A program made the translations under genes and the position numbers. Of a stretch of 64,000 bases of DNA, positions 26,248-28,392 are shown in pieces. The notes below the pieces were generated by a model. That model searched no databases. It was not told the origin of the DNA and saw only the letters and a list, made by a program, of their open reading frames with translations. The stretch comes from Hymenobacter sp. GOD-10R (GTDB lineage: Bacteria; Bacteroidota; Bacteroidia; Cytophagales; Hymenobacteraceae). The first letter of the stretch is position 1. The number at the start of each line of letters is the position of its first letter. The stretch is taken from contig NZ_CP141184.1 in the NCBI RefSeq assembly GCF_035609205.1, positions 5,401,001 to 5,465,000 on the forward strand, written 5' to 3'.

Positions 26248-28308
26248 ATGGAGAATTTCGTCGTTTCGGCCCGTAAGTATCGTCCCGCCACCTTCCGCAG
26301 CGTGGTTGGGCAGCAGCACGTGACTACCACGTTGCAGAACGCTATTGTCAGTCATCACCTAGCCCAAGCTTTCCTTTTTTGTGGTCCGCGCGGCGTGGGC
26401 AAAACCACCTGCGCACGTATTCTGGCCAAGACCATCAACTGCACGAATCTGACGCCGGAAGCCGAGGCGTGCAACGAGTGCGAGTCGTGCCGGGCGTTCA
26501 ACCAGAACGCCTCCTTCAACGTGCACGAGTTAGACGCGGCTTCCAACAACTCGGTCGAAGATATTCGCTCGCTGGTGGAGCAGGTGCGCTACGCCCCGCA
26601 GGCTGGTCGCTACAAGATCTACATCATCGACGAGGTGCACATGCTCTCCAACGCGGCCTTCAACGCCTTTCTGAAGACCCTGGAAGAGCCGCCGAGCTAC
26701 GCCATTTTTATCCTGGCTACCACCGAGCGCCACAAGATCATCCCCACGATTTTGTCGCGCTGCCAGATCTTCGATTTCAACCGCATTCGCGTCGAAGACA
26801 TCCGCAAGCACTTGCGCTATGTAGCCACGCAAGAGCACATTGCCGCCGAAGACGACGCCCTGCACCTGCTCGCTCAGAAAGCCGACGGTGGTCTGCGCGA
26901 CGCCCTGTCTATGTTCGACCAGATGGTGACCTTCTCAGGCCATAATCTGACCTACAAGGACGTGGTGCAGAACCTGCACGTGCTTGACTACGAGTACTAC
27001 TTCCGGCTGGTCGATGCGCTGCTGACGGAGAACCTCTCGGCGGCGCTGCTGCTGCTGGATGAGGTGATGCAGAACGGCTTCGATCTGCACAACTTTGTGG
27101 TGGGCGCGGCTGAGCACTTGCGCGGCTTGCTGGTGTGCAAAGACGCCGTGACGGTGCAGTTGCTGGAAGTTTCGGAAGGCATTCGGGCGCGCTACGTGCA
27201 GCAGGCGCAAGCCTCTCCCCTTGCCTTCCTGCTCTCGGCCCTAAACCTAGTAAGCCAGTGCGACCGGGAGTTTAAGCAAGCCAAAAACCAGCGCCTCCAC
27301 GTGGAGCTCACGCTGATGAAGCTAGCCTACCTGAACGGTGCCGTGCAATTTGCCCGCGACCTAGGTTCCGGCAACGGCCACGCTGCAAACGGCGAGGCTA
27401 AAAAAAAAACTAGCATAGGGACAGATACGCCCGGAGCGAGTGCGCCCGTACCCGCTCCGGCACCTAGCATCCCTGCCGCTACGGCTGCGCCGGTCGTTGA
27501 AGCGGCTCCTAGAGTTTCGGCGCCGGCTCCGCGCCCGATGGCGCCGCCCGTTGCCGCTCAGCCGGTTGCTACCGTTTCCGCACCGGCGGCGCCGGAAGAA
27601 ATCGTGCCAGTAGAAAGCGGCGTTGATGAGTTGCACACAACCCCTAGCATCGAGGATGAGGTAGCCGATATACCGACGGTTCATCACCAGGTGATGGACT
27701 CAAACCCGCACGTGGACATTGGCGCACCGAGCGTAGCAGGCCACGAGCCGGCCGCCATCCGGATGCCACCACCGCAAACGGCCGCGAATAAGCCCTTGCC
27801 AACAACGGCCAAGCTGCCGGGCCTAGCTTCCAAGATTCCGAGTCTGAAGAACCTGAAGGAACAGGTGGCACAGCAGATGACGGCGACCAAAGCCGCGCCA
27901 GTAACAGACGACGAGCCGAGCGGCCCCGTAACGGGCTTGCCGGTTATCGACGAGGAAGTCTTGCAAAAAGCGTGGAACGACATTAAGGAGGACCGACGCG
28001 CCCAGGACCGCATGAGCGAGTACATCGTACTGAACCGGCCCGTGTCGGTGGATGATCAGCACGTTATTCGTCTGGCCGTGGACAACCCGATCCAGATTGA
28101 CCAGTTCAACGCCTTCCGCAGCGAGTTCCTGACCGAGTTGCGCCAGCGAACCGGCTACCCCCGCCTGAACGTGCATCCGGTGCTCGTGGAGCAGGCGCCA
28201 ACGGCCCGTAAGCTCTACACCTCGGCCGATAAGTTTGAGTACCTGGCCGACAAGTTTCCCATCCTGCTGGATATGAAACAGAAGCTAGGTCTGGACACGG
28301 ACTTTTAA
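26248..28308 (+). CDS. dnaX: DNA polymerase III subunit gamma/tau
   Basis: The 686-residue clamp-loader ATPase subunit. Walker A GPRGVGKTT is at residues 46-54, the zinc-knuckle cysteines at 65, 75, 78 and 81 (CNECESC), Walker B IIDEVH at 127-132, then the sensor/arginine-finger region ILSRCQIF. The collar domain III ends near residue 370, followed by a Pro/Ala-rich linker and a C-terminal domain that would bind the polymerase. At codons 385-387 there is a run of ten A (27400-27409); slippage there would end the protein within a few codons, giving a gamma-sized product (see findings). A strong long hairpin follows the stop. Confidence 0.97.
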   Translation: MENFVVSARKYRPATFRSVVGQQHVTTTLQNAIVSHHLAQAFLFCGPRGVGKTTCARILAKTINCTNLTPEAEACNECESCRAFNQNASFNVHELDAASNNSVEDIRSLVEQVRYAPQAGRYKIYIIDEVHMLSNAAFNAFLKTLEEPPSYAIFILATTERHKIIPTILSRCQIFDFNRIRVEDIRKHLRYVATQEHIAAEDDALHLLAQKADGGLRDALSMFDQMVTFSGHNLTYKDVVQNLHVLDYEYYFRLVDALLTENLSAALLLLDEVMQNGFDLHNFVVGAAEHLRGLLVCKDAVTVQLLEVSEGIRARYVQQAQASPLAFLLSALNLVSQCDREFKQAKNQRLHVELTLMKLAYLNGAVQFARDLGSGNGHAANGEAKKKTSIGTDTPGASAPVPAPAPSIPAATAAPVVEAAPRVSAPAPRPMAPPVAAQPVATVSAPAAPEEIVPVESGVDELHTTPSIEDEVADIPTVHHQVMDSNPHVDIGAPSVAGHEPAAIRMPPPQTAANKPLPTTAKLPGLASKIPSLKNLKEQVAQQMTATKAAPVTDDEPSGPVTGLPVIDEEVLQKAWNDIKEDRRAQDRMSEYIVLNRPVSVDDQHVIRLAVDNPIQIDQFNAFRSEFLTELRQRTGYPRLNVHPVLVEQAPTARKLYTSADKFEYLADKFPILLDMKQKLGLDTDF
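27400..27409 (+). promoter_or_regulatory. Ten-A slippery run in dnaX
   Basis: The zero frame reads AAA AAA AAA ACT AGC ATA GGG. Adding one A gives AAA AAA AAA AAC TAG; removing one gives AAA AAA AAA CTA GCA TAG. Stops thus lie immediately in both shifted frames, at the boundary between clamp-loader domain III and the linker. Confidence 0.6.
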
Positions 28309-28309
28309 A

Positions 28310-28392
28310 GCAAAGAATGACGGAGCGGCTGAGCACCTGAGTGATGTTGAACAACGTACACTCAGGTGCTCAGCCGCTCCGTCATTCTTTGC
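28310..28392. repeat. Perfect 34-bp inverted repeat (dnaX terminator region)
   Basis: The arm 28310-28343 (GCAAAGAATGACGGAG...) is perfectly complementary to 28359-28392 around a 15-base loop. It starts two bases after the dnaX stop codon. It may act as a bidirectional terminator or RNA-stabilising hairpin. The arm carries GAATGAC/GTCATTC, also present in the repeat at 49955-50035. Confidence 0.85.

Follow-up and report, generated by a model that had tools for sequence, protein, structure and literature searches.

The dnaX gene of Hymenobacter sp. GOD-10R carries ten consecutive adenines shortly after the part that codes for the clamp-loader domains, and the question that this locus raises is whether such a run is a quirk of composition or a device by which a single gene supplies both the tau and the gamma subunits of DNA polymerase III. 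The window (the whole 64-kb stretch of the 7.5-Mb host genome that was analysed) is considered here together with dnaX genes from across the Bacteroidota. The patterns that emerge make it quite probable that the run is a programmed RNA-polymerase slippage site for tau and gamma, of the type known from Thermus.

The run and its setting in the Hymenobacter gene

The gene (26248–28308, forward strand) is an open reading frame for a protein of 686 aa, with tau as the templated product. It matches the NCBIfam model NF011531 at 795.5 bits (cut-off 685) as well as TIGR02397, and the nearest named protein is that of Hymenobacter crusticola (91%). Comparison by phmmer with E. coli DnaX structures covers residues 4–359 of the query and places the clamp-loader domains I–III in residues 1–359 (26248–27324, forward strand). 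By translation, the tau-only part (27412–28308, forward strand) consists of a Pro/Ala-rich linker followed by a conserved C-terminal region, the tau frame being open for 302 codons counted from the run. Immediately 3′ of the dnaX stop, at 28310–28392, there is a near-perfect 83-nt hairpin (−76.1 kcal/mol, z −16.1), which is long for a plain terminator and has two weaker relatives, 70–76% identical, elsewhere in the same genome.

The candidate slippage site (27400–27409, forward strand), recognised from the sequence and from its comparative conservation, takes up codons 385–387 and the first base of the ACT that forms codon 388. It lies 56% along the gene and begins about 25 codons past residue 359, where the homology to domains I–III of E. 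coli DnaX ends. The variant with eleven A reads AAA AAA AAA AAC TAG and closes after 388 aa at the TAG of 27411–27413 (forward strand), the same stop that a −1 ribosomal shift would hit. The variant with nine A reads AAA AAA AAA CTA GCA TAG and closes after 389 aa at the TAG of 27416–27418 (forward strand), which is also the stop for transcripts with two extra A (390 aa). These stops stand four (one extra A, +1A) and five (one A fewer, −1A) codons beyond the codon at the start of the run, and domains I–III are predicted to stay whole in the gamma product. The first-pass annotation had described ten A just after domain III, with AAC TAG following one extra A, CTA GCA TAG following one fewer, and products of 388–389 residues; the sequence, the end of the homology and both translations agree with it. 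The GAGG at 27394–27397 (forward strand), just 5′ of the run, is from its sequence a doubtful Shine–Dalgarno-like (SD-like) element.

That this is the sole A/T run of eight or more in the window is unremarkable by itself; as many or more A8 matches were found in 39 of 100 shuffles of the 64 kb. The two strands of the whole 7.5-Mb genome hold 13 overlapping A9 matches, corresponding to 11 distinct A/T runs of at least nine, and two distinct runs of at least ten. The other run of ten (G000:C1:5151547-5151556, L088) is near the 5′ end of an ORF that we take to resemble an FkbM-type methyltransferase, and two similar ORFs, presumably endoxylanase-like (L086 and L087, position 1501), each have an A9 near the likely start codon.

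Spread of the run and of the templated frame

A search for dnaX found matches in 78 of 79 near-relative genomes (the own genome included), 107 of 109 genomes of a class set and 68 of 70 of a phylum set, with no match at the cut-offs used in G011, G087, G143, G199 and G222. Once overlaps and unfetched places had been removed, 226 genes were read. Left out of these were G091 (a fragment), 12 phylum-level genomes with a match and, as duplicates, L090/L091; since all 12 omitted matches have long open frames (547–691 aa), the share of split genes at the phylum level is overstated. A run was counted if it started no earlier than 30 nt before and no later than 330 nt past the codon that matches residue 360. 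On this count, 191 of the 226 genes, from 70 of 93 families, have an A-run of at least eight beyond domain III; by rank, it occurs in the own gene (1/1), 47/47 genes of the genus, 28/31 of the order, 91/108 of the class and 24/39 of the rest of the phylum. Its start lies at a median of 49 nt past the codon matching residue 360 and, in 181 of the 191, no more than 100 nt from domain III. A10 is the prevailing length (152 genes), followed by A9 (27), A11 (9), A8 (2) and A12 (1). The site is dispensable, since 35 of the 226 genomes are without it, the longest A-run in these run-less genes being A7. The first-pass annotation had held that its reading would fall if relatives did not conserve the run; with 48 of 48 genes of the genus and 191 overall retaining it, that objection fails.

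The surrounding sequence provides a measure of what chance might yield. Domains I–III of these dnaX genes contain three runs of at least nine, all A9, in 238,308 bases, and a further 84,996 bases, taken from the 450 nt that follow the site, contain eight A-runs of at least nine and 22 of A8. At the downstream density, about 31 of 226 stretches would be expected to have A8 or longer and about 8 to have A9 or longer, against 191 and 189 seen. The run is therefore more than chance, being conserved at A9 or above in 189 of 226 genes versus about 8 expected. A few runs may nonetheless be chance occurrences, since the linker, too, has A-runs of 8–10, numbering 30 in 85 kb, and for 10 of the 191 the distance to domain III exceeds 100 nt.

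Among the 191 genes with the run, tau is in frame in 134, requires one extra A in 52 and one A fewer in 5, which means that in 57 of the 226 genomes (52 + 5) tau is reachable only by a shift at the run. The conserved C-terminus of tau persists in these genes out of frame: its profile is found in the continued frame of 49 of the 52 extra-A and 4 of the 5 fewer-A genes, as it is in 127 of the 134 with tau in frame. The misses are in part short or broken records (L050, L051, L097, L169, L225, L337), and others have full-length tails (L189, L209, L216, L221, L232, L238). Parsimony on a FastTree tree of 225 proteins, for which L050 was too short, gives 31 changes between tau- and gamma-templated states, or 27 without the fewer-A rows. 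On a quick IQ-TREE tree of 107 representatives, which left out the five fewer-A rows, it gives 24, as against a mean of 23.9 (19–29) in 200 label shuffles, the taking of one genome per family and state forcing changes on that tree. It is safer than quoting these flip counts to say that tau-in-frame and extra-A genes occur side by side in 11 families. At close range, L235 templates gamma with an A9 and L236 tau with an A10; 144 of 150 upstream bases match, and the runs differ by one A.

A named set, comprising the best 80 of at least 592 relatives of the split gene L199, is non-random and may overlap the 226. Among these best 80 loci the run is present in 64, of which 43 have tau in frame, 18 need one extra A and 3 need a shift in the other direction, with the tau C-terminal profile in 43/43, 17/18 and 3/3, respectively. 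The tau-in-frame loci of this best 80 include those of Hymenobacter polaris, Rufibacter hautae, Dyadobacter, Pedobacter, Mucilaginibacter, Aquimarina and a Maribacter, and the extra-A loci those of Flavobacterium denitrificans, F. psychrotolerans, F. quisquiliarum, Chryseobacterium lathyri and Halpernia humi. Run-less loci among the best 80 belong to Bacteroidaceae (five), Prevotellaceae (four), other Bacteroidales (six) and one unplaced source, so that 15 of the 23 Bacteroidales in the best 80 are without the run and 8 have it. The Bacteroidaceae and Prevotellaceae lineages may have lost the dnaX A run; their run-less loci in this set are L304, L310, L316, L320, L322, L324, L339, L347 and L348. 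A shortening to A7, with stops still near in both shifted frames, is seen in L076 (G054) and L107 (G131), the former reading GAA AAA AAG, an E. coli-type heptamer, which perhaps reflects a change from polymerase to ribosome slippage.

Two more mundane origins of the split genes were considered and set aside. Fission of the gene with a separately translated tau C-terminus is unlikely because an ATG follows the run within 20 codons in just 1 of 70 extra-A genes; an SD-plus-start combination within 30 codons is present in 2 of the 70, and the same counts for tau-in-frame genes are 2/177 and 6/177. The 70 are the 52 together with the 18 from the best 80 named loci, the fewer-A genes (5, and 3 named) standing outside the count. 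Assembly error finds no support as a general cause, since the members of one family concur in several instances (f83, f72). Single split cases may be errors, namely G003 and G010, which have further breaks in dnaX, and the same may be true of the genus A11 genes of G008 and G022 and of the A9 of Flavobacterium sp. YO12.

Selection at the run and the agents that might slip on it

Codon phases 0, 1 and 2 all serve as the starting point of the run (62, 91 and 38 of the 191 genes, respectively), so that the encoded peptide differs. In the 45 tau-in-frame genes of the genus the Lys codons at the site are AAA in 135 instances and AAG in none, as against 384 AAA and 656 AAG elsewhere in dnaX, a comparison confined to the genus. 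These patterns show that it is the nucleotide run rather than the peptide that has been conserved.

The stops offer a second line of evidence. For each of the two non-tau frames, we measured how far beyond the end of the run the first stop lies and ranked this against the same measure taken at positions 30–360 nt downstream in the same gene, in 189 genes (2 of the 191 had too little sequence). A stop comes within 5 codons in 176 of the 189 in the +1A frame and in 149 of the 189 in the −1A frame, where 55.5 and 47.8 would be expected. In families with tau in frame (n = 50) the mean percentile is 0.12 for +1A and 0.27 for −1A (p = 4.5e-10 and 2.5e-7), and in extra-A families (n = 29) it is 0.29 and 0.16 (p = 9.6e-4 and 1.3e-6). 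In the tau-in-frame genes of the genus, the +1A frame closes no more than 5 codons past the run in 45/45, and the −1A frame closes within 9 codons in 45/45 and within 5 in 40/45. The 35 run-less genes have no stop excess at positions 15–75 nt past domain III (mean percentile 0.56/0.52). The claim that stops wait in both shifted frames thus holds far beyond the one gene for which it was made, these stops being far commoner near the run than in the linkers of the same genes.

Programmed polymerase slippage would bring these features together as follows. RNA polymerase would lose register at the A10, producing dnaX mRNAs with A9, A10, A11, A12 and so forth. Messages with A10 (and A13) would be translated into tau, and the others would stop soon past the run, giving a gamma-like protein of some 388–390 residues that keeps domains I–III and is devoid of the tau C-terminus. 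Since slippage would supply every frame, lineages might drift between a tau-templated state, as here, and a gamma-templated one. Heterogeneous mRNA, the two proteins with their ratio and function, and the polymerase as the agent are what we infer from such sequences. The suggestion made at the outset, that slippage in either direction could give a truncated product of gamma size, is supported at the sequence level by the conservation, the stop excess and the 57 of 226 genes that depend on a shift. Bacterial polymerases slip on A/T runs of at least nine, with insertions more frequent than deletions, according to excerpts of two studies (PMC6260861; PMC5009743), the former of which also has the E. 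coli polymerase slipping more easily on poly(T) than on poly(A). The preponderance of insertions fits the 52:5 bias in direction, which a −1 ribosomal shift would fit too.

Such a programmed −1 ribosomal frameshift, in the style of E. coli dnaX, would have the ribosome slip back one base and reach the TAG at 27411, thereby making gamma, and in the split relatives would take it into the tau frame. It is an unlikely account of the site, for which a fair number of observations can still be marshalled. Its direction is right for 52 of the 57 split genes (+1A being equivalent to a −1 ribosomal shift), but the other 5 need the opposite one. Any A10 contains shift-prone heptamers, yet a heptamer needs no 9–11 A's, the range in which run length mostly falls, and both the codon phase and the next base vary. 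A_AAA_AAG is present in many relatives (of 142 genes from outside the genus whose run reaches nine or more, 47 end it on a zero-frame AAG codon), but it is absent in the window, where the codons are AAA AAA AAA ACT. The 40 tRNAs read in the own genome, a list that may be incomplete since 150 of 207 candidates were scored initially, include one tRNA-Lys (UUU) and none with CUU, which is the E. coli situation; the two-tRNA-Lys situation of Thermus is linked to slippage in the available part of PMC5009743. SD-like 4-mers cluster 3–11 nt 5′ of the run (21 of 31, in 70 families) and occur within 15 nt of it in 16 of 70 families versus 4.8 expected from upstream windows. Set against linker windows, they display no overall excess (0.44 vs 0.49 per 43 nt), and the clustering could come from Glu codons. 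In the window a strong fold stands by itself some 20 nt 3′ of the run (z −2.9), and of 79 family samples 10 have a downstream fold with z < −2, but no structure runs through the genus (mean z 0.11, with 2/45 below −2). RNA structure was rejected as a stimulator, the mean z being −0.37 (50 samples) and −0.67 (29) downstream and −0.39 and −0.69 upstream, with z < −2 in 6/50 and 4/29 samples downstream and in 4/50 and 5/29 upstream. A next base G, present in 19/29 families of split genes vs 22/50 of the others (p = 0.10), was not used. Against the ribosomal shift there is, moreover, the early closure of the very frame that it leaves unused; messages with assorted numbers of A fit the two closed frames, because a −1 ribosomal shift uses one alternative frame only. 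Polymerase slippage thus appears to fit better than the ribosomal shift.

It is very improbable that nothing is programmed here, in the sense of a Lys patch or a chance homopolymer with stops nearby by coincidence: the run is indeed missing from 35 of 226 genomes, but against this stand its conservation in three phases, the AAA-only Lys codons of the genus, the stop excess and the conserved tau C-termini that lie out of frame. The least probable account is DNA-level phase variation, whereby replication slippage would alter the run length between cells and so switch dnaX. Species do differ in run length (A8–A12) and close relatives flip frame, but A10 is the commonest length throughout the phylum (152/191). 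The replisome cannot do without a subunit of the tau type, and cells locked in gamma should therefore not grow, which counts against such switching. The conservation of the run across much of the phylum most likely reflects slippage that gives a short and a long protein.

If polymerase slippage is the right reading, the make-up of the replisome in a large part of the phylum would be set by polymerase error at one A run, with some genera depending on that error for tau, and the split dnaX frames at Flavobacterium and Chryseobacterium loci would be accounted for. It would also be a warning not to take the run for a sequencing error that has to be "corrected". More broadly, there is a reasonable case that the dnaX A10 of Bacteroidota is an old, frame-indifferent switch, polymerase slippage being dependable enough to leave the choice of templated subunit nearly neutral, so that it has flipped many times. 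Were this true, the gamma-templated Flavobacterium and Chryseobacterium would make tau only from mis-copied mRNA. The variety of A9, A10 and A11 in three phases, with either product templated, might then serve as a set of natural replicates for testing the need for gamma.

The Hymenobacter site among known dnaX systems

In E. coli, dnaX is subject to a −1 programmed ribosomal frameshift with A_AAA_AAG, an SD-like element and a stem-loop. The Hymenobacter locus resembles it in concerning the same gene and having the same predicted outcome, tau and gamma with a stop soon after the shift, but differs in that the window is without A_AAA_AAG and that a stem-loop is not common to the genus. Slippage of the Thermus type is recognised by, among other things, heterogeneous mRNA lengths and a tau:gamma ratio near 1:1; of its sequence features, a run of at least nine A/T after the clamp-loader domains and stops close in both non-tau frames are found in the window. 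Conservation of the run over the peptide, a criterion added here, is seen in the comparison of the 226 genes. The dnaX of Thermus thermophilus, with A9 and tau in frame, is the experimental precedent for slippage in the available parts of PMC1088944 and PMC5009743. As described there, it is like the Hymenobacter gene in having an A run inside an open tau frame and near stops in both other frames, its gamma arising from slipped messages. The Thermus run, however, is an A9 about seven eighths along its gene, whereas that of Hymenobacter is an A10 at 56%, soon after domain III, and expression of the two products has been demonstrated in Thermus, whereas for Hymenobacter it is predicted. A still different route is that of Caulobacter, where, in an excerpt of PMC5009743, the short form of DnaX is derived from the full protein by a protease, with no slippery run.

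A further parallel is provided by Antonov et al. 2013, who, in the portion of that paper available (PMC3711429), reported 17 two-ORF dnaX genes from 12 genera in which tau needs recoding, and proposed slippage. The sites described in that portion are A10 in nine genes and A7–A9 in three, and the genera named for such genes are Chlorobium and Chloroherpeton. A10 is likewise the run in the Hymenobacter window, but gamma is templated in the genes of that portion and tau in the window. The templated frame, which ends at the run in the two-ORF type, continues past it in the window and ends there in 52 (+1A) and 5 (−1A) of the 226 genes. Titles and the starts of abstracts in the open-licence literature yielded no description of such a site in Hymenobacter or of its spread over the Bacteroidota. 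The first-pass annotation had regarded it as undescribed in Hymenobacter-like bacteria, which stands for Hymenobacter itself within that literature, but split-frame A10 dnaX genes had been reported in 2013, in the part of PMC3711429 at hand. Because that part already presents A10 dnaX genes needing recoding, the Hymenobacter site joins a known kind. Slippage in Thermus and A10 dnaX genes that need recoding are already on record; the phylum-wide spread with repeated switching may be new, and both the spread and the flipping of the frame among relatives appear to have been under-appreciated.
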